Assembly (NCBI GenBank): GCA_951640195.1
Contig: OX621175.1
Span: 124,001-188,000, forward strand
Origin: Porpolomopsis calyptriformis
Lineage: Eukaryota; Basidiomycota; Agaricomycetes; Agaricales; Hygrophoraceae
DNA: 64,000 nt
Direction of reading: 5' to 3'
In this document: in pieces, positions 2,597 to 13,610 of the stretch
Position numbering within the stretch: position 1 is the first letter of the stretch
Layout: each line of letters begins with the position of its first letter
Translations under genes and position numbers: made by a program
The notes under the pieces: model-generated
The model's input: the letters and a program-made list of their open reading frames with translations, nothing else
What the model was told of the DNA's origin: nothing
Databases searched by the model: none

Positions 2597-4792
2597 GGTG
2601 GGTGGATGTTGGAGGTTGGGGGGACTTAAGAGAAACTTTAATTGCAATAAACACGTGATATGATATTACCTCTGTTCAAAGCATTCTGAGTCCTCACACC
2701 AATGACCTTTGTGTGTTCAGGATGCGGAAGGCAGTTCCACAATGCCCATGGACTCACCAGGCATAGAAACTCGTGCAAAAAGGCCCTCCAGAGGATTTCG
2801 CGCATCATCCAGAAAGATCAAGAGCGATCGGAGGCCGAACGAGCTGCAAAAATTGCTCGGCGATTTGGTGGAGATATCGGGGAGGAACTGGGAGGCCTGG
2901 AAGTAGATAACATACTGGTATGTCTTATGATTTTTATCTAGAGCTTCGCAACTTACGGGAAACGATAGCTTGCAAGCGAGGATTATACTGATGCACACAT
3001 AGCTGATCCGCCTGCGTTCGCACTGCAAGCAACTTGGTCTGGCCGCGTCAGGTGATTTCCTAAACAATATAATGACTACCTTCTATCATCTACAACACAT
3101 ATGCCCCATATGCCCCCACCCATTCCCCGTGTTTCATCCCGAATGGCTCGAGAAATTGGGCCACAAGTCCCTGACCCTCCACCTCAAGTTCGTGACCCCC
3201 TCTCTGACCTGCCTTTCTATGAAACTGAGCCAAATGAATATGGCCTTTTCCGACGATACCCTACGATGCCAACACATGAACCTGACCAAGACGTCTCACT
3301 GGACGATTTATGCGACGCCCCTGGACTTGCTGTCCGTGATCGTACCACTCAAAACTGGTGGTCTGGCCTTAGCGAATCTTTTTCTACCATTACAAAGAAT
3401 CTGTATGCGCCCTACCACAACTCGACGGTTTTCAATTTAATGTCGTGGTACTACAATGGCTCAAATACGAAATCTGCAGCAGACCTCGATGCCCTCATCA
3501 AAAATGTCATTCACACAGACAGATTTAATGCAGAGCACTTAGCAAACTTCAGTGCTGCTAGAGAGAACAGACGCCTCGATGAATACACGGACGCTGGGTT
3601 TTCAGAGAAGGATGGGTGGAAAGAGACGTCAGTTTTTATACCGCTCCCTGGAGAAAACTGAGAACACACATCAAATGAGGATTCTGCGCCAAAATTCGAG
3701 GTCAAAAACGTGTTCTATCAACGTATAATTGAGGTCATCAAACATGTGTTTCAAGACCCAACTGCAAAATCGTTTCATTTCACACCCTTTGAACTTTTTT
3801 GGCAGCAATCTCTGGATACACCACTGGAACATGTAATTTCGGAACTGTACAACTCTGACGCGTTTTTGGATGAACACAAGAAGATCGCCAAGCAGCTAGA
3901 ACCTGGGTGCCAACGCGAGACGGTAATTGCAGCGATCATGCTGTGGTCCGATGCTATGCACCTGGTGAATTTTGGGACAGCATCCCTCTGGCCAATCTAT
4001 TTGTATTTTGGGAATCAGTCCAAGTACGCGCGAGGTAAACCTACCTCGTTTTCGGGCCACCACATGGCCTATATCCCACCGGTACGTTCATTTTTTCACC
4101 AATGAAATGATTCGCACATCTCACGAAATTCACAATAGCTACCAGATGAAATACAAGATGCCTACAGGGGAATTTTCGGTAAAAGCGCCAGCCCCGCGGT
4201 GCTCACGCAGTTGAAGCGTGAACTCATCCATGCCATCTGGAAAGTCATCCTTGATGGGGACTTCGAGCATGCGTACAAACACAGCATCATTATCCAATTC
4301 TCAGATGGAATCGAGCGCCGAGTGTTCCCGCGGTTATTTACATACTCAGCAGATTATCTAGAAAAGTGGGTAACTGTATTCATCTTTGCAGAATCACACT
4401 GACTATTGTATTCTAGAGTCCTTCTTACATCTATCAAGTCGTTAGGCCAATGTCCATGCCCGCGATGTTTCATCACCAAAGACAAAATCTCAAGTCTTGG
4501 CACTAAGCCAGATATGTGACGTCATGAAGATATTCGGAAAGACGACCACCCACTACGAAAAACCATAGAGATGGTTCGCGGGTGGATATTCGAGAAGGGC
4601 TATCCACTTACTAGCAAATCTATCGATAACATACTTGGCCGAAAGTCTTTGGCCCCAATTCAAGTAAGTAACGGCTTGTATTTTATATCAGAACTAACTA
4701 ATGTCTCACAGAACTCATTTTCGAGTGTCTTCTCGAAACTCGACTTCAACTTTTATTCAATATTCGTACCCGATCTTTTGCACGAGTTTGAA

Positions 4793-4797
4793 TTGGG
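4793..4797. repeat. Target-site duplication TTGGG, left copy
   Basis: The five bases TTGGG stand directly before the 5' LTR, and the same five bases directly follow the 3' LTR at 11469-11473. This is the duplication expected from Ty3-type integration. Removing one copy together with the element restores an open transposase frame across the site. Confidence 0.95.
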
Positions 4798-5166
4798 TGT
4801 CACGGACACTTTTTCCTTTTCCCTTTTAGTCATACTTGATTAGTCTCCATTCCGTTTATCCTTCCGCTTTGCCGTTTTATATATAGACTGATCACACGCA
4901 CCTTCCTTCTGACTCTTTCACGAGTCACATTCCGTTTCCGCTATTCTCTTTGTGACTCTTCACTGGTCACATTCCGGATTCCGCTTTGTAATCGTACATA
5001 CAACTGACTCATGGTGACTCAGGTAGTTAGTATATAAAGCCTGATCTTTAGTCAGTAGGTTAAGTTCGATTCCTAGTTAGCTCCCCCACTCTTTAGTCGA
5101 ATTCCATTTCCCTCATCAGCCCCTCCAACGCGAGAAGTAAAACCCTTCGACTACTGAATCATAACA
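4798..5166 (+). repeat. 5' LTR of the chromovirus
   Basis: The repeat begins TGTCACGG and ends TCATAACA (369 bp). A TATATAAA box lies at 5031-5038. The predicted transcript start is A5062, 31 bp downstream, which coincides exactly with the first base of an 11-base sequence complementary to the primer-binding site. Compared with the 3' LTR there are seven mismatches, every one a transition. Confidence 0.95.
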
Positions 5167-5167
5167 A

Positions 5168-5178
5168 GAATCGAACTT
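5168..5178 (+). promoter_or_regulatory. Self-priming primer-binding site (Tf1-like)
   Basis: GAATCGAACTT lies one base after the 5' LTR. It is the perfect reverse complement of AAGTTCGATTC at 5062-5072, which lies 31 bp after the TATA box. The first 11 bases of the predicted RNA could therefore fold back and prime minus-strand synthesis, as in Tf1 of fission yeast. I see no tRNA 3'-end complement (no TGG start) at this position. The pairing does not extend on either side. Confidence 0.75.
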
Positions 5179-5341
5179 CCTTCTTGCGCATCAAACTACT
5201 TCCACTCTGGATCTTGCCGAAGACTTAACAAGGTCAATCTTCTCATCCGCAGATTCAGATACTCCCTTTCAACCTATAGCATTCCAAACCCCTGCACAAT
5301 CCATCATCCCCCTTTCCCCCTCGTCATCATCACTAACATCA

Positions 5342-6761
5342 ATGCCTCAACAAGAATACGAAGCCGATCAGAGTGTTCCCGCACCCGGACCCAGTAACAT
5401 TCCCCCTACCATTCGAGAAGAAGAAGAAGTCGTCGTCCCATTCAACATCGAACAAGAGCTCAGAGATCTAAGAGCACAAATCGATCAATTTCGTGGCTGG
5501 TACTACAACGAAGTCGACGTCAATGACGAACTCCGAAAGGAATTAAAAGCTCTCAAAGAAAGTCGACGAGAAGACTCAGAACCAACCACCCCTCCCCCAC
5601 GACGACGATCTGTACTTCGGGGACCTGGACTTTCCCCCTCGAATCCTTTCGTTTACCCTGCAAGAAGAACCGAATCCATCCAACCTCCTCTCCCATCAAC
5701 CTTTCCCACTCAACTACCTACCCAGACAACTGCCCCCTACACTTCCAGCCCCCACCAAAATCAAAATCGCCGATCCAACTGAATACGATGGAACTTCCAA
5801 GAAGCTTGAAGATTTCATTCACCAATGTCGACTCAATTTTGTGGTCAAGGACTACAACGACAAACAGAAAATCATCTACATGCTCTCTTATCTCGGTGAC
5901 AGCAATCCACGGGCTTGGGGACGACTGTTCACAGAAGGAGTTGATAGAACGAAGAATTTCATATGGGACTACGCAACATTTTTGGACGATTTTAGGGAAG
6001 CTTTCGGAAGGATTAACCCAGCAGTGAAGGCGCGGATCGAGCTAGAAAAGGTGAAAATGACAGGAACGATAGAAGACTACAACCTTCGGTTCATGCAACA
6101 CGCAGCAAGAACTGAGTACAACGAGACCGCTCTACTTCGGTTTTACAAAGCCGGACTCCCCCAGCCAATCCGAACGCGGATTTATTCGATGGACAACATG
6201 CCATCGACCTTGCTGGACTGGACGACGAAAGCGGCCCAGTTCGAGGAACAGTACCAGGAGCAACGAGCCGAACAAGCGTTGTGGTCAAGTCGAGACCAAA
6301 AAGGAAAGAAGTCTGAAGCCAAATCGAATCCCCGAGGAAACCCTTCCCGCTCCACCACCACCACCACTTCATCCCCGATCAAACAAGAATCGAGAGAAGC
6401 CTCTCTCAAGACAGCGAAACGAGACAACTCCTCCGTCACTTGCTACAACTGTGGCAAAAAGGGACATTACGCCAATGAATGTCAAAGCCCACGTGCTGAA
6501 GACGTTCCGGCACATCAAGAATCCTCAACTCCTACTCGAGGAAAAGGAGGAAATCGCGGTCGAGGCAAAGGACGAAATGTCCGAACGATCAATCGGGTTG
6601 ATACAGAAGAATCGGAAGCGCGGATAGAGGAAGTACCGGAGGATGACGAAAAAGAGAAAAGGATGGCAAAAGACGACTTGAAGGATATGGGAATCGCGAA
6701 TTGGGACAAGGAGAGACGGGCTGCGCTAGCTCGAGCGTTAAAAGAGCAAAAGGATTTTTAA
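5342..6761 (+). pseudogene. gag: gag of the chromovirus, frame broken near 5738
   Basis: The N-terminal ORF 5342-5782 starts MPQQEYEADQ and has an acidic, coiled-coil-like first third. From about 5750 the conserved capsid sequence continues in the +1 frame (5841-6761 open): LEDFIHQCRLNF upstream, then WDYATFLDDFREAFGRI, GTIEDYNLRF and a CCHC knuckle, CYNCGKKGHYANEC. One extra base in the run around 5733-5738 (T5738 fits best) explains the shift; deleting it joins the two parts in frame. A programmed shift here is unlikely, because I see no slippery site and the change lies inside a non-conserved linker. The product would be the nucleocapsid and capsid precursor. Confidence 0.82.
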
Positions 6762-6769
6762 TCCAGCCA

Positions 6770-9700
6770 AGTGCAAAATGCCCGAGCACTTTGGCTGTGT
6801 CCCATGTATGTGTACCATCATCTATGAAAAGTTTTCGTTTTCTTGGCACACTTGAACAGGGCAAAGGCGCTCTCGAATTCTATCTTTGGATCACGAGTGC
6901 CGACAATCTTCGATGAGTGGCTATCATAGCACTCATTGACTCTGGCGCCTCAGGGAATTTTATTGACGAAGCATTCGTTCGTCAAATGGAGATATCGACC
7001 TATCTGTTGGATGAGGTTGTACCAGTACGAAACGCTGATGGTTCCGAGAACTGAGGAGGTCCCATCACGCACGACACAGACCTGTTTATCGAGGCACCAG
7101 ATCTATCTTTTCGAGAACGAATCCGGTTGGAGGTCACCAACTTAGGAGGAAAACAACAGGTTATCCTCGGCTTCCCATGGCTCTTGCGACACAACCCCAC
7201 CATCAATTGGACAAAAGGCACCTTAACCTTTGCGTCTGGTGACACGCTGTTCAGTAGTATGCGAGTCGGAGTGTTGCCCCCACAGGAAGAACTCTATGTC
7301 TTTGATTCGAGTCTGAAACATGACTCCTTTATCCGTTTGGTCAGAGTTGACCACTCCCGACCAGTTTCCATCGAGGAGGACATCAAATCTTTCATTCCCA
7401 GTCGTTATCACAATTTCTGGCGTGTTTTCCATACCACAGAATTCGACAAACTTCCTCCTCGACGTCCCTTTGATCATGCGATCAACCTCTACCCGAACAC
7501 CAAATTTCAAGTTGGAAAACTCTATCCCCTTTCCCCCTATGAACAGGTGGAACTTAATAAGTTTATTGACGAAAATCTCAGAACAGGTCGGATACGTCCA
7601 TCGAAATCACCACAAGCTGCTCCTTTCTTCTTTGCGAAAAAGGCCGAAGAGATCAATGCCAAAGGTCTCAGTGCTGGTCTACGTCCCATCCAGGACTATC
7701 GCTACATCAACTTGAAAACCATTCCTAATCGTTATCCCCTCCCCCTTCTATCGGAAATTCTCCAAGTGCCGAAGCTTGCTACTGCTTCACTCTTCACTGT
7801 CATCGATATTCGATGGGGATTTAACAACATACGACTCAAGGAAGGCGACAAATGGAAGGCAGCTTTCATCACCAATCGAGGACTCTTTGAACCGACTGTC
7901 ATGTTCTTTGGACTACGAAACTCCCCAGCATCTTTTCAACGAATGATAGACGTTCTCTTTAAACCCATTCTGGACTCTGGCTGTGTTCACATCTATATTG
8001 ATGACATTCTTATTATGGGCAACACCCCCGAAGAAATCCGCCACTGGACTGATGAAACCCTTAAACTCATGGAGAAGAATCAACTATCCGCCAAACCTGT
8101 CAAATGCCAAATGGAGAAGACCTCTGTTACATACCTTGGTACAATCATCAGTAAAGGTCAACTCGCTATCAATCCAAAAAAGGTAGACGCCATTATCAAT
8201 TGGCCGACACCCCAAAAACTGCGAGACCTCCAATCCTTCCTTGGCACCACCAACTTCTGGTGTCGTTACATCAAAAGTTTCTCCTCAGTCGTTTGTCCCC
8301 TCTGTGGACTTTTGCGGAAAGACCAACCTTGGGATTGGTCTCCTTTGTGTCAAAAAGCCTTTGAACAGCTCAAATATCTCGTCACTACAGCCCCTGTCCT
8401 TCTTACCCCATGGCCAGACCTTCCTTACCTCTTGGAGACCGATGCCTCCGATTTTGGTATTGGCACGGTCTTATCTCAAAAACACGACAATGGTTGGCAC
8501 CCTGTTGGCTTTTTCTCGAAGTCCCTACTCCCTGCCGAGTACAACTATCCTACCCATGACCTGGAGATGCTTGCGATCATCACTTCCCTCAAATATTGGC
8601 GCTATCTTTTAGAGGGCGCAAGGGATACTGTATTGATAAAAACAGACAATTTAGTGCTGAAGTATTTCATGCAGAACAGATCCCTCTCCAGACGACAAGC
8701 ACGTTGGATGGAATTCTTAGGCAGATTCGACTTCAAGATCGAGTATTCTCCTGGAGTCAAGAACAAAGCTGATGGACTCTCTCACCGACCTGACCACTGT
8801 TGTACAGAAAAAGAAGAATTAGAAGGCCAAGCCCTCCTCCCCCCTGAACGTTTCATCAATGCTATTATTTCCATGTCCGAACCCTCTTTCATGTCAAGAC
8901 TTCGCTTCCCCGACTTCAACCAAATCCCAGAGGACATTCGCATCAAATTATCTGATCCCTCTTCCGGCTACTCCTTCACTGACGGAATTGTGAGAGATGC
9001 AGGAGATTGTATTGTCGTGCCAGCAGATGTATTGCTACGCACAGAGATAATTCGATTGACCCACTCCCTACCCCATGGAGGCCATCCCGGAATCGAGAAG
9101 ACACGTGAGCTTGTGTTGCGGAACTACACCTGGAGTAGTGCTGCCCCTGACATCCGTGTATTCGTATTATCCTGTCCGACCTGCCAACAAGTCAAGCTTT
9201 ATCCCTCTAAACCTGCAGGTCTCCTGGAACCCATTCCCCCTTCGTCTCGACCTTGGGAAGAAATCACCGCCGATCTAATCGTGGAACTCCCCCAATCATC
9301 TGGCTACGATGCTGTTTTAGTCGTTGTCGATCGCTTTACCAAACGCGCTCATTTCGTCCCAACGACATCGAATATTTCTGCAGAAGGAGTCGCAAAACTC
9401 TTCAGGGACAACGTATGGAAACACCACAGCTGGCCAAAGAAGATCATAACCGATCGAGGAACTCAGTTCGCTTCCAAATTCGCGAAAGCTCTCAATACTC
9501 ATTTGGGAATCATTTCCGGTCTATCCACTGCTTATCACCCCCAAACTGACGGTCAAACGGAACGCACCAATCAAGAACTTGAACAATACCTTCGTTTATA
9601 TACAAACTTTATGCAAGACGATTGGTCCAACTGGCTATCCCCAGCTGAATTCGCATATAACAACCGACAACACTCCTCGACAAAACACACTCCCTTCTAC

Positions 9701-10321
9701 CTTGACACTGGCCAACATCCCTTCGTCCCATCTATCCCTGCGATCCCTACTTTCAATCCCGCAGCAGATGCCTTTCACGATCATCTCACAGAAGCCCGCG
9801 AAGAAGCCACAAAAGCTCTAGAAACAACAGCCGAAACCATGAAACGCTTCGCAGATCGTAAACAGAAAGATACCCAACTCCAAATAGGTCAATTTGTTTA
9901 TCTTGATACCCGTAACTTAAAAACAGGTCGTCCAACCCTCAAACTTGATGTCCGACGTACTGGACCATTCAAAGTTCTAGAAAGAATCGGGAAAGTCTCT
10001 TATCGCCTGGCCCTTCCCTTATCATGGAAAATACACGACGTCTTTCACGTTTCACTCCTGAGACCCGCTAACATTAACACCGATCTCCATCCAGAGGAAG
10101 TAGATGATAATCTCCATCCACCTCCGGATGTCATTCAGGAAAAAGAAGAATACGAGGTTGAACAAATTCTCCAACACCACGGGTCTACCCGACGTCATAC
10201 ATATTTGGTCAAATGGGTTGGCTATCCCATTGAAGAAGCAACCTGGGAGCCGAAGAAGAACCTCCTCCATGCGAAAGAACGAATTCTAGAATACGAACGC
10301 TCAATTCAAATGGCAACCTAA
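6770..10321 (+). CDS. pol: pol polyprotein of the chromovirus: protease, RT, RNase H, integrase, chromodomain
   Basis: The frame is -1 relative to gag and overlaps its end. The protease has the active-site motif LIDSGASGNFI near 6921, but TGA codons fall at 6914-6916 and 7052-7054, so the intact frame is only 7127-10321. In order, that frame encodes RT (first Asp in TVIDIRWGF, then YIDDILIMG), RNase H (TDASDFGIGTVLSQK), the integrase HHCC finger (HGGHPGIEKTRELV with CPTCQQVK), the integrase core (DLIVELP, ITDRGTQFAS, STAYHPQTDGQTER) and a C-terminal chromodomain (YEVEQILQHH, YLVKWVGYPIEEATWEPKKNL). The chromodomain places it among chromoviruses, whose integrases target methylated chromatin. 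The start of pol is inferred. Confidence 0.9.
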
Positions 10322-10440
10322 TCATTCTTTCACGGTATCAACTCCCCTCGTTTATATTTTCACTTTTGTCACCTTTCCAAACTCCGACCTGTCCTTATAA
10401 TCTCTTTCATCTCCGTCTTTCACCAGAAATCGACATCACT

Positions 10441-11019
10441 ATGCCCGCAGAATGCTCACACCAAACCGCTCGCAAGTCAACCGGTGGTCGTCCACCCCAC
10501 GCTCCTCGTATGTCCACTGGAGGACAACCCCCTCACCACGCTCTCCCTCCGCTCACTTCCACCTCCTCTGTCTACAGTGAAGCTGAGCTCGCCGGACAAC
10601 TCTGGCAACATAACCATCGCGCGCGTAACCAGGACCTTCCCATATGGCCAGAGGAAATCGTCGCGCCACCCATCCCACCCGAGCAAATCATCGAGTTGTT
10701 ACAGAAGGACGTTGAATACTACAAAAACGAAGTCGCGAGATTGAATGAGGAATTGTATAATCAAGGAATGAGCTTGGACGGAAAGAGAAGAGCGAGTGAC
10801 TATTGGCGAGAACAGGCCAAACACTGGGAGGCGAAATACGAGGAAGTCACAAAGGTACTTCCCCATCTTGATTCCCTGGTTCCTCCTGTTTTCCCAGGTC
10901 CGCTCATCATTCCCCCCGGTTCGTCGTCGAACCCCATCACCATCCCCGACGACGACGACACTTCCCCGGCCGACATTATTTCCTTGTCAGCCACCATCTC
11001 CAACAAGGACTTAGCTTAG
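10441..11019 (+). CDS. Third ORF of the chromovirus, with a histone H3 tail-like N-terminus
   Basis: This 192-residue ORF lies between pol and the 3' LTR. I chose ATG 10441; the frame is open further upstream without an earlier ATG that I trust. Residues 8-16 read QTARKSTGG, identical to histone H3 residues 5-13, which include Lys9 and Ser10. A degenerate second copy, RMSTGGQPPH, follows. Residues about 80-140 are charged and helical, probably a coiled coil (EQIIELLQKDVEYYKNEVAR). The C-terminus is Pro/Ser-rich with an acidic DDDDT patch. The element's own integrase carries a chromodomain, the fold that binds H3K9me in other proteins. A link between the two is inference. I know no family for the rest of the protein. 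Confidence 0.75.
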   Translation: MPAECSHQTARKSTGGRPPHAPRMSTGGQPPHHALPPLTSTSSVYSEAELAGQLWQHNHRARNQDLPIWPEEIVAPPIPPEQIIELLQKDVEYYKNEVARLNEELYNQGMSLDGKRRASDYWREQAKHWEAKYEEVTKVLPHLDSLVPPVFPGPLIIPPGSSSNPITIPDDDDTSPADIISLSATISNKDLA

Positions 11020-11063
11020 TCCTTCCCCTCCTCCGCACCCGTCAGCACTCTCGAAGCCGCCTC

Positions 11064-11099
11064 GAATTTCGGGACGAAATTCCTTTTAGTGTGGGTGTA
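11064..11099 (+). promoter_or_regulatory. Hairpin and purine-rich tract before the 3' LTR
   Basis: GAATTTCG and CGAAATTC (11064-11071 and 11075-11082) are perfect inverted repeats around a GGA loop. A GT/G-rich stretch then leads into the LTR at 11100, where plus-strand priming is expected. The left element has the same arrangement at 198-232, with a 7 bp stem and the same GGA loop. Confidence 0.6.
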
Positions 11100-11468
11100 T
11101 GTCACGGACACTTTTTCCTTTTCCCTTTTAGTCATACTTGATTAGTCTCCATTCCGTTTATCCTTCCGCTTTGCCATTTTATATATAGACTGATCACACG
11201 CACCTTCCTTCCAACTCTTTCACGAGTCACATTCCGTTTCCGCTATTCTCTTTGTGACTCTTCACTGGTCACATTCCGGATTCCGCTTTGTAATCATACA
11301 TACGACTGACTCATGGTGACTCAGGTAGTTAGTATATAAAGCCTGATCTTTAGTCAGTAGGTTAAGTTTGATTCCTAGTTAGCTCCCCCACTCTTTAGTC
11401 GAATTCCATTTCCCTCATCAGCCCCTCCAACGCGAGAAGTAAAACCCTTCGACTACCGAATCATAACA
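11100..11468 (+). repeat. 3' LTR of the chromovirus
   Basis: The LTR is 369 bp, ends TCATAACA and is followed by TTGGG (11469-11473). The copy of the self-primer has one C-to-T change (AAGTTTGATTC), which would still pair as G-U. Confidence 0.95.
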
Positions 11469-13610
11469 TTGGGCATGTGGAAGGCGACTTTTACACATCT
11501 CATTCGCATACTCGATGCTGTCAAGGGGATCGCGATCCAGCAATTGAACAGACGGTAAGTATTTTTATTCTTCGTGCATGAGACTATATCTAATACATGT
11601 ACAGATATCGGCGGGTACCTACGTTCGGACGATCTACCATACGGCGATTCAACAACAATGCCTCTGAAATGAAGAAGTTAGCAGTGCGAGATTTCGAAGA
11701 CTTACTGCAGGTATGTCGGGGTTTTGGGATCATTACATGGATCAAGTATTCACACACTTGCAGTGTGCGATGCCCGTTTTCGAGGGTCTCCTCCCCGTTC
11801 AACACAACGAGATCATGCTTGATCTCCTCTTTGTCCTTGCAACTTGGCATGGGTTTGCCAAGCTTCGCGTTCACACGCAATCGACAATGGCTGCCCTAGA
11901 AGCAACGATGACCGACCTTGGCAAGATTCTCCGAAAATTCAAGAGGGTCACATGCGCCGCATTTGCAACACGCAAGCTGCCTCGAGAAGCGGTAGCCCGA
12001 GCGCAACGCAATGCGAAGGGGTCTTCAGCGAAGGGGAAGGAAAAGGCTCCTCCCAGTGACACAGGTCAGCCAAAATCAAGTGGACAAAAAAAAAAACAAT
12101 TCAATCTGTCTACATACAAGCTTCATGCACTCAGCGACTACGTCAAGACCATTCAATTGTATGGTACAACTGACAACTACAATACTCAAGTGGTGCGTAG
12201 CGTGTAATACATCTCTCTATTCTTTAACTGTTATTTTATTGCAGGGAGAACTTGAACACTGCCGAGTCAAGCGGTTCTATGCGAGGACGAACAAGATTCA
12301 ATTTACACGGCAGATCGCTAAACACCAGCGGCGTGAGCGAATCTTGCAAAATATTCGAATGCAAAACAAGGTTGCAAACGCAACTGAAAACCTCACAGGA
12401 GATAGTGCCACGCTGGACTTCGATGAACAAGATCCACTACCATACACCACCCCTTCGGCTCACTACCATATTTCAGAGTCAACACGCTACCCGTTAAATG
12501 TTGTGCAGTGGGTCTCGTTGCATCAAAATGATGCTGCTCTCAAGGTAAGTGGTCTACCTATCATTTGTATCTCCCCATCTCACTTGTTTTCTAGAACTTC
12601 ATGCCAAAGTTGAAGGATCATATCCTTCGTCGGCTGCATGGAAAGGCTTACGACAGGGATGATGAACCCTTCCCAGATGAAGAAAGGGCTGCCATTTCAT
12701 TTGTCCATGGTCGAATCTACCGACACAAGGTTGTTCGCATCAACTACACTACATACGATATGCTCCGGTCACAAGATTCGCTGAACCCTCGCACTCATGC
12801 TGATATCATGGTTCTCACTCATGAGGATCAAACTGAGACTAACGATAGCCCCTACTGGTACGCGCGTATCATTGGGGTTTTTCATGCTCAAGTTTGCTAC
12901 AAGGATCCTGAGATGCAAACAGTCTATGGGCCTCAGAAGATTGAATTTCTGTGGGTAAGATGGTTTGGGCAGGATGTATCTCACAAATCAGGTTGGCAGG
13001 CGAAGCGACTTCATCGAATAGGGTTCCTCCCTGCTGATGATGACACGGACACAGAAGCCTTTGGGTTTCTGGATCCAAAGGATGTCATTCGCGGCATTCA
13101 TCTCATACCAGCATTCGCATATGGAAAAACCCAAGATTATCTCGGTCCATCAATTGCTCGGCAACCAAACGAAACTGATCAAGACTGGGTTTATTACTAT
13201 GTTGCTATGTAAGTTCCTTGTATTTCACTATCTACGAAACTAACATCCAGTCTAGGTTTGCTGATCGAGATGTCGTCATGCGCTACTTCGGTGGCGGCAT
13301 CGGTCATAAAGCGACATGGGCTCTAAATCCCAGCCGGTACAACGTGCGCGAAGATGACAGTGATGGTGATGAAGAGAACGACGGCAGCGAGAATGATGGT
13401 GACAACCGCCAAGACAACGGCAGTGACGACGGTGTTGAGGAGGAGGAGCGGGACTATGGTTATGTGCACGAGGATGCAGAGGGACCAGGCGCAGGCGCGG
13501 ATGTATGTGGAGAAGATGGTTTCGACAACGAAGGGTTGGGTCCTGAGGATGGTGAGGAGGGGTGGGAGGATGAAGAGGAGATAGACGATGATTACTACGG
13601 GGCGCTATAA

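Follow-up and report, generated by a model that had tools for sequence, protein, structure and literature searches.

Sequence comparison indicates that selection has kept, at the N-terminus of a retrotransposon open reading frame (ORF), the nonapeptide QTARKSTGG as a mimic of the histone H3 tail around Lys9 (H3K9), a mimic whose biochemistry we infer. The ORF lies between pol and the 3' LTR of a Ty3 chromovirus. H3K9 methylation is a main mark by which transposons are silenced, and chromoviruses are thought to choose their insertion sites by it.

The element and its post-pol ORF

The chromovirus occupies 4798-11468 of the window, by which we mean the whole stretch of 64,000 nucleotides analysed (C13:124001-188000 of a 33.5 Mb genome in 17 contigs). 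Its features are as follows.

4793-4797 and 11469-11473: target-site duplication TTGGG, on both flanks of the chromovirus
4798-5166, + strand: 5' LTR, 369 bp, begins TGTCACGG and ends CATAACA; differs from the 3' LTR at 7/369 positions
5342-6761, + strand: gag region, two listed ORFs (5342-5782 and 5841-6761), CCHC zinc knuckle (zf-CCHC, E 7e-7)
7127-10321, + strand: pol ORF with reverse transcriptase (RT), RNase H, integrase zinc-binding domain and core, SH3-like domain and chromodomain
10148-10300, + strand: integrase chromodomain (Pfam, pol residues 1009-1058, E 9e-13), cage aromatics Y24, W45 and Y48 in HP1 numbering
10395-10400, + strand: TTATAA, putative core promoter, 46 nt upstream of the post-pol ORF ATG
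10441-11019, + strand: post-pol ORF, 192 aa, putative accessory protein with H3 mimic
10462-10488, + strand: QTARKSTGG, equal to H3 residues 5-13, Lys12 corresponding to H3K9
10507-10536, + strand: degenerate second H3-like repeat RMSTGGQPPH, Met at the place of Lys9
10678-10857, + strand: predicted long helix, residues 80-139 (AlphaFold2), with a related stretch in family B
10927-10959, + strand: SNPITIPDDDD tail, its first nine residues being the most conserved nine-codon window of the ORF on inner branches
11100-11468, + strand: 3' LTR, 369 bp

The LTRs have the TG...CA ends and the 5-bp target duplication of a chromovirus by direct check of the sequence, and the Pfam matches follow the order RT, RNase H, integrase, with the chromodomain C-terminal, as the initial annotation had said of the integrase. 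Alignment to HP1 places all three aromatic cage residues of a group I retrotransposon chromodomain. The spacer between pol and the post-pol ORF measures 119 nt. The SNPITIPDDDD tail resembles a SUMO-interaction motif with acidic residues after it.

The insertion splits a long stretch (window 4571-4797 and 11474-13610) that looks like a gene and resembles a KDZ-type transposon protein; its ORFs that were compared with Pfam gave no convincing match. A post-pol ORF of another family, C, with the N-terminus MPREVRYACKSTGRRPPRGNP (L113), lies at C13:123261-123950 and ends about 50 bases before the first base of the window.

The N-terminus of the post-pol ORF reads MPAECSHQTARKSTGGRPPHAPRMSTGGQPPH, and its residues 8-16 equal H3 residues 5-13 at 9/9 positions, just as had been read at the outset; a linear match of this kind, to the part of a histone tail that holds a modifiable residue, is one mark of a histone mimic. 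The weaker second copy noted at the same time is likewise present as residues 23-32, and to this we add that Met stands there where Lys9 would. Given the composition of the ORF itself, QTARKSTGG would be expected anywhere in it 6e-10 times, and any 9-mer from H3 residues 1-40 6e-8 times.

At the nucleotide level, the pattern coding for QTARKSTG finds one site in the window at up to two mismatches, against 0.03 in shuffled sequence. Genome-wide there are 72 TARKSTG-coding sites against one for the backward pattern, and 125 ARKSTG-coding sites against 14. The 97 of these ARKSTG sites that lie on C1-C10 among the 100 listed comprise 53 N-termini of the window element's family (family A), 39 of family C, three H3 genes (L093 and L094 were read, and the third, C5:682832, is assumed) and two stray sites that match the pattern and do not code ARKSTG. 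With the whole ORF as query, a PDB sequence search returned H3 tail peptides in 10 of 15 rows (query residues 6-24, E 1.2-2, not significant alone), the top row being an unrelated enzyme at E 0.15; against Pfam the ORF has no match.

Conservation within and between element families

The ORF has 128 matches in the genome, of which 109, with pieces counted separately, belong to family A at E 4.2e-10 or better; 18 of the other 19 (E 4.8e-5 to 3e-4) belong to a distant family B. The set analysed consists of the 90 best rows of family A, including the window copy, and the 19 omitted rows are lower-scoring and mostly partial. QTARKSTGG is exact in 66 of the 90, and the Lys9 equivalent is kept in 88, the other two having Glu and Asn. 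When the 23 inexact copies that can be matched to an exact one are compared with it, 19 differ by C>T or G>A only, the decay that would be expected of a methylated repeat.

Codon changes were counted by parsimony on a tree of the 90 copies, with neutral rates taken from the noncoding spacer and CpG treated apart; parsimony with frequent CpG changes can misplace events, and inner branches were taken to reflect copies that went on multiplying. On these inner branches the motif underwent 6 replacements where 66.7 were expected, while its synonymous changes (19 against 18.5) were as expected, and since synonymous turnover is normal it is the protein that is conserved and not a DNA or RNA signal. 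The motif thus has a replacement ratio of 0.09, below the 0.27 of the remaining ORF codons (Poisson p 0.001). On outer branches there were 27 replacements against 67.8 expected (0.40), the rest of the ORF standing at 0.68 (p 0.0015). Of the flanking codons, 2-7 have ratios of 0.48 (inner branches) and 1.28 (outer branches), and 17-23 have 0.44 and 1.38. No inner-branch replacement fell on codons 12-15 (K, S, T, G), and the Arg8 equivalent changed on 3 inner and 12 outer branches.

The whole ORF is under constraint, and the motif is not its most conserved part: among 182 nine-codon windows it ranks 12 on inner and 19 on outer branches, the top inner-branch window being SNPITIPDD with 1 replacement against 53.6 expected. 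Conservation of QTARKS in related elements had been proposed as a test of the claim, and within this genome the motif passes it, being more conserved than its immediate neighbours; both the codon counts and the alignment with family C place its conservation above that of its surroundings, as would be expected of a histone mimic.

A sub-family of A (L078, L079, L080, L082, L084 and L087) carries an insertion before the motif, and four of these six read MPAERIQHHSQTARKSTGG. At L078 a truncated 3' LTR of A abuts an integrase end that has no chromodomain, and a family B ORF begins about 1.1 kb past the end of the A ORF (C1:522529). The same A-then-B order recurs at near-equal spacing on C1, C4, C5, C9 and C11, as if a chimeric unit had multiplied.

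Family C is a chromodomain family whose integrase end is 62% identical to that of A and whose post-pol ORF, with 135 matches in the genome, starts MPREVRYARKSTGRRPPRGNP (L095). Here ARKSTG occupies codons 8-13, compared with 10-15 in A. Only the N-terminal ends of the two ORFs align well: hhalign joins residues 7-56 at E 6e-4 with a probability of just 28%, and BLASTP, in a single comparison, joins 1-31 at E 2e-4, other pieces having E of at least 1.6. ARKSTG is exact in 39 of the 84 family C copies on C1-C10 that have codon 1 transcribed. Another 20 N-termini were read, comprising 12 from C1-C10 without a match to the pattern and 8 from C11-C14, past the end of the listed sites. All 20 retain Lys. 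An intact ARKSTG is present in 4, each of them from the group of 8, and Arg8 is missing from 12, of which 10 belong to the group of 12 and 2 to the group of 8. Among these 20, the substitutions within ARKSTG replace Ala by Thr, Arg by Cys or His, and Ser by Leu, each through a C>T or G>A change. Family C has neither the QT pair nor a second H3-like copy. The inner-branch replacement deficit in A, together with this core in C, argues for a selected H3K9 mimic rather than chance.

In family D (150 matches scored of 295 candidates) the post-pol ORF, read in two copies, L096 and the decayed L029, starts MPATRSTQSPSPQ and lacks the motif, and the chromodomain cage is full. This weakens the idea of a fixed partnership of motif and integrase, since D joins a cage-bearing chromodomain to a motif-free post-pol ORF. 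A narrower idea, that the motif is tied to an intact cage, had arisen from the loss of Y24 in the decayed copy and was dropped on the full cage of copy L096/L098. By first-look candidates (295) D is the most numerous of the families searched, and its ORF at L096:292-1000 carries an acidic INVDLEYPIDDDND and no H3-like motif.

The family B ORF is related to that of A along the helical stretch (BLASTP 1e-9, 34% over 76 residues) and is without the motif in L091; the B integrase end just upstream of its ORF (L078:2232-3020) gave no chromodomain match. The ORFs of B, C and D had no Pfam match above the cut-off. The motif is found, then, in two of the three chromodomain families that have a post-pol ORF and is absent from the one family without a chromodomain, a distribution that is suggestive, with cases too few to prove a link to the integrase; family B fits that idea as a single case. 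A fourth chromodomain family, of which little was read, lies at L019 on the minus strand. As to the order of gain or loss, a tree of about 90 residues groups A, C and D (0.88), with a support of only 0.46 within the group.

Protein database searches with the ORFs of A (75 candidates) and C (1561 candidates) gave no relative at E 0.01, while a control search with pol gave 1075 proteins at E 1e-20. The 8 organism-named pol relatives among the 120 listed are seven from mushrooms (six from Lyophyllum, one from Psilocybe) and one from the green alga Closterium; fungal pol relatives are thus found, yet post-pol ORFs may go unpredicted in such protein sets. ARKS occurs in 3 and ARKST in none of the 120 listed, which as pol proteins are uninformative on post-pol ORFs. 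A scan of IMG/VR and of bacterial and archaeal genomes found no relative, as expected of sets without fungal genomes.

In the host H3 gene L093:34-58 a predicted mini-exon codes exactly QTARKSTGG (H3 5-13), and host H3 codons 5-13 at L094:22-46 are identical in 24 of 25 bases to six family A copies. The motif might possibly have been captured from an H3 exon, or the likeness may be coincidence; we leave this as a remark, because with so few sites a common codon usage can account for it.

A candidate mechanism and its rivals

TTATAA precedes the post-pol ATG by 46 nt in A, 45 nt in C (L095:191-196) and 104 nt in D (L096:188-193), and 86 of the 90 family A copies have a TATAA no more than 130 nt from the ATG. 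On inner branches of A none of 528 TTATAA sites changed, against 200 of 9944 in the rest of the spacer (Fisher p 5e-5; p 1e-4 for A/T sites only), and on outer branches 9 of 540 changed against 346 of 10093 (p 0.026; p 0.13 for A/T sites only). Some other spacer 6-mers are equally conserved, and over all branches TTATAA ranks 6 of 113. These spacer counts suggest that TTATAA is the core promoter of the post-pol ORF, and hence that the putative accessory gene has a separate promoter.

An AlphaFold2 model of the ORF product (25 rows, mean pLDDT 64) predicts no secondary structure, at low pLDDT, for residues 1-46, a helix at 47-62, a helix at 80-139 with ten-residue pLDDT means of 75-97 that is probably a coiled coil, and past residue 139 no structure longer than three residues. 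A fold search with the model gave three matches, the best at E 7.

The cage of the integrase chromodomain is kept at Y24 in 87/87 copies, at W45 in 82/87 and at Y48 in 86/87, four of the 87 having a stop at W45. An AlphaFold2 model of this domain (15 similar rows) was set aside for its pLDDT of 53.9 in favour of the sequence alignment to HP1. The host genome has one Pre-SET match, of the H3K9-methyltransferase type (C14:899559); host HP1, sought by Chromo_shadow, gave no match, and the control was equally silent. Residues Q5-S10 of the H3K9 peptide are critical for chromodomains, which the QT pair helps to distinguish H3K9 from H3K27 (PMC3532415). SUV39H2 reads R8, S10, T11 and G12 and also uses T6, A7, G13 and K14 (PMC8303541), and the MAGGY integrase chromodomain is reported to bind H3K9me2/3 (PMC3350952). 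The chromodomain and SUV39H2 footprints jointly require H3 5-14, of which family A offers 5-13, so that they fit; the 7-12 of family C suits a writer better than a reader because the QT pair is absent.

We propose, in a judgement balanced about evenly for and against, that the ORF tail is an H3K9 mimic methylated by the host and read by HP1-type chromodomains. The expression, methylation, binding and effect of the product would all run as follows. The post-pol ORF would be expressed separately, from its own TATA box, as an accessory protein whose flexible N-terminal tail imitates the H3K9 site on a helical, probably oligomeric body. A host enzyme of the KMT1 type would methylate Lys12 as it does H3K9, and the methylated tail would be bound by readers of H3K9 methylation, which might be the element's own integrase chromodomain, host HP1 or both; host HP1 or the methyltransferase is as open a candidate partner as the integrase. 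An oligomer with several tails could rival nucleosomes in binding these readers, or keep integrase complexes together.

The proposal is supported by the exact motif in 66/90 and the lysine in 88/90 copies of A, the inner-branch replacement deficit and the ARKSTG of family C, and also by the kept cage, the published footprints, the Pre-SET gene and the predicted lack of structure in the tail. It is weakened by Arg8, on which SUV39 enzymes depend and which changes in A and is lost in 12 of the 20 further N-termini of C; by the motif-free family D; by family C, which has no QT and in which only 39/84 copies on C1-C10 are exact; and by the rank of the motif (12 and 19 of 182) within its own ORF.

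The methionine histone H3K9M traps the H3K9 methyltransferase, and by virtue of its Met repeat the ORF product might do the same: the Lys copy would be a competing substrate and the Met copy a pseudo-substrate that holds the host methyltransferase, so that new copies escape silencing. In its MSTGG (codons 24-28) there were 3 inner-branch replacements against 40.2 expected, none of them at Met, and the STG after Lys or Met is what SUV39H2 reads (PMC8303541); anti-silencing proteins coded by transposons do exist, VANC being an example (PMC5735166 and PMC10398659). However, synonymous changes in MSTGG were also few on inner branches (2 against 9.8 expected), so that low mutability may explain part of the deficit. 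Compared with A-R-M-S-T-G, the repeat conserves M-S-T-G-G and is preceded in most copies by P-R or P-H: Met follows either Arg or His, depending on the copy, and the next position upstream is mostly Pro, not Ala. The second copy is also absent from family C, and the C>T and G>A decay suggests that copies do become methylated and silenced. This is the main rival, and we think it rather unlikely; it could work jointly with the methylated Lys12 tail.

The tip might instead be kept for another reason, as a basic nuclear-import or DNA-binding tail (AT-hook-like GRP) or as a kinase or 14-3-3 site at RKS, with the likeness to H3 incidental. The region is indeed rich in proline and in basic residues, equal conservation is seen elsewhere in the ORF, and RKS can serve as a kinase site. 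Against this, the uncharged T9, S13, T14 and G15 had no inner replacement, just like the lysine, whereas beyond the H3 stretch positions 20 and 23, where Arg, His or Cys predominate, have 5 and 6 inner changes and R17 was altered on 2 inner branches and on 16 outer ones; moreover, the match extends across nine residues of a single given protein and comes back as ARKSTG in family C, and we find this explanation somewhat doubtful. Chance likeness without function, already disfavoured, is very improbable: short motifs do recur across large proteomes and the distribution is known from one genome, but the expectation of 6e-10 per ORF, the selection at the protein level and the recurrence of the core in family C uphold the first judgement of the initial annotation that such a match is unlikely by chance. 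A wider reading, which we judge clearly less likely than not, is a two-headed imitation of the H3 tail, with a methylatable Lys and an enzyme-trapping Met, carried on an oligomer under its own promoter and diverting H3K9 silencing while the integrase carries the matching reader.

Relation to known systems

With a likely reader of the mark and a conserved imitation of the peptide that bears it coded in one element, parasites would be seen to act on the H3K9 pathway from both sides. The element may present the silencing machinery with a decoy or with a tag for docking, and the tail of its post-pol ORF would offer a natural inhibitor or scaffold for study. The prediction is sharp, as it concerns a single peptide, a single lysine and named partner domains. 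Searches of the literature on histone mimics, on H3 ARKS/QTARKS and on transposons and H3K9 returned, among the matches listed, no report of a retrotransposon-coded H3K9 mimic beside a chromodomain integrase.

Histone mimicry in viruses and an additional ORF in fungal chromoviruses are already known. Fungal chromoviruses with an additional ORF of unknown function have been described (PMC2864245), and like the present element they are Ty3/gypsy elements with a chromodomain and an extra ORF; likeness to a histone is unmentioned in the portion of that source available, and the comparison is by description and not by sequence. The integrase resembles those of the MAGGY type in its C-terminal chromodomain with cage aromatics (PMC3350952), and differs in that the element here also codes a likely ligand of that chromodomain. 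A possible counter-silencing role for an accessory transposon gene recalls VANC of Arabidopsis VANDAL, although VANCs, described as sequence-specific, are likened to the post-pol ORF by role only. As in the H3K9M histone (PMC5030085), the second repeat has Met at the Lys9 place followed by STGG, but the protein is not a histone, most copies have Pro for Ala7, and either Arg or His stands at the place of Arg8.

The closest parallel is with viral and host histone mimics, among which are G9a and influenza NS1. ARKS of SARS-CoV-2 ORF8 and AKKRS of adenovirus protein VII are viral cases (PMC10208167), the ORF8 case being disputed (PMC10833455). Like these, the post-pol ORF codes a non-histone protein that reproduces a brief linear stretch of the H3 tail with a modifiable lysine in it. 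Unlike them, it has nine identical residues and not about four, it is coded by a retrotransposon whose integrase bears a reader domain of the H3K9me type, and its core is kept in two element families, in one of which selection at the protein level was measured.
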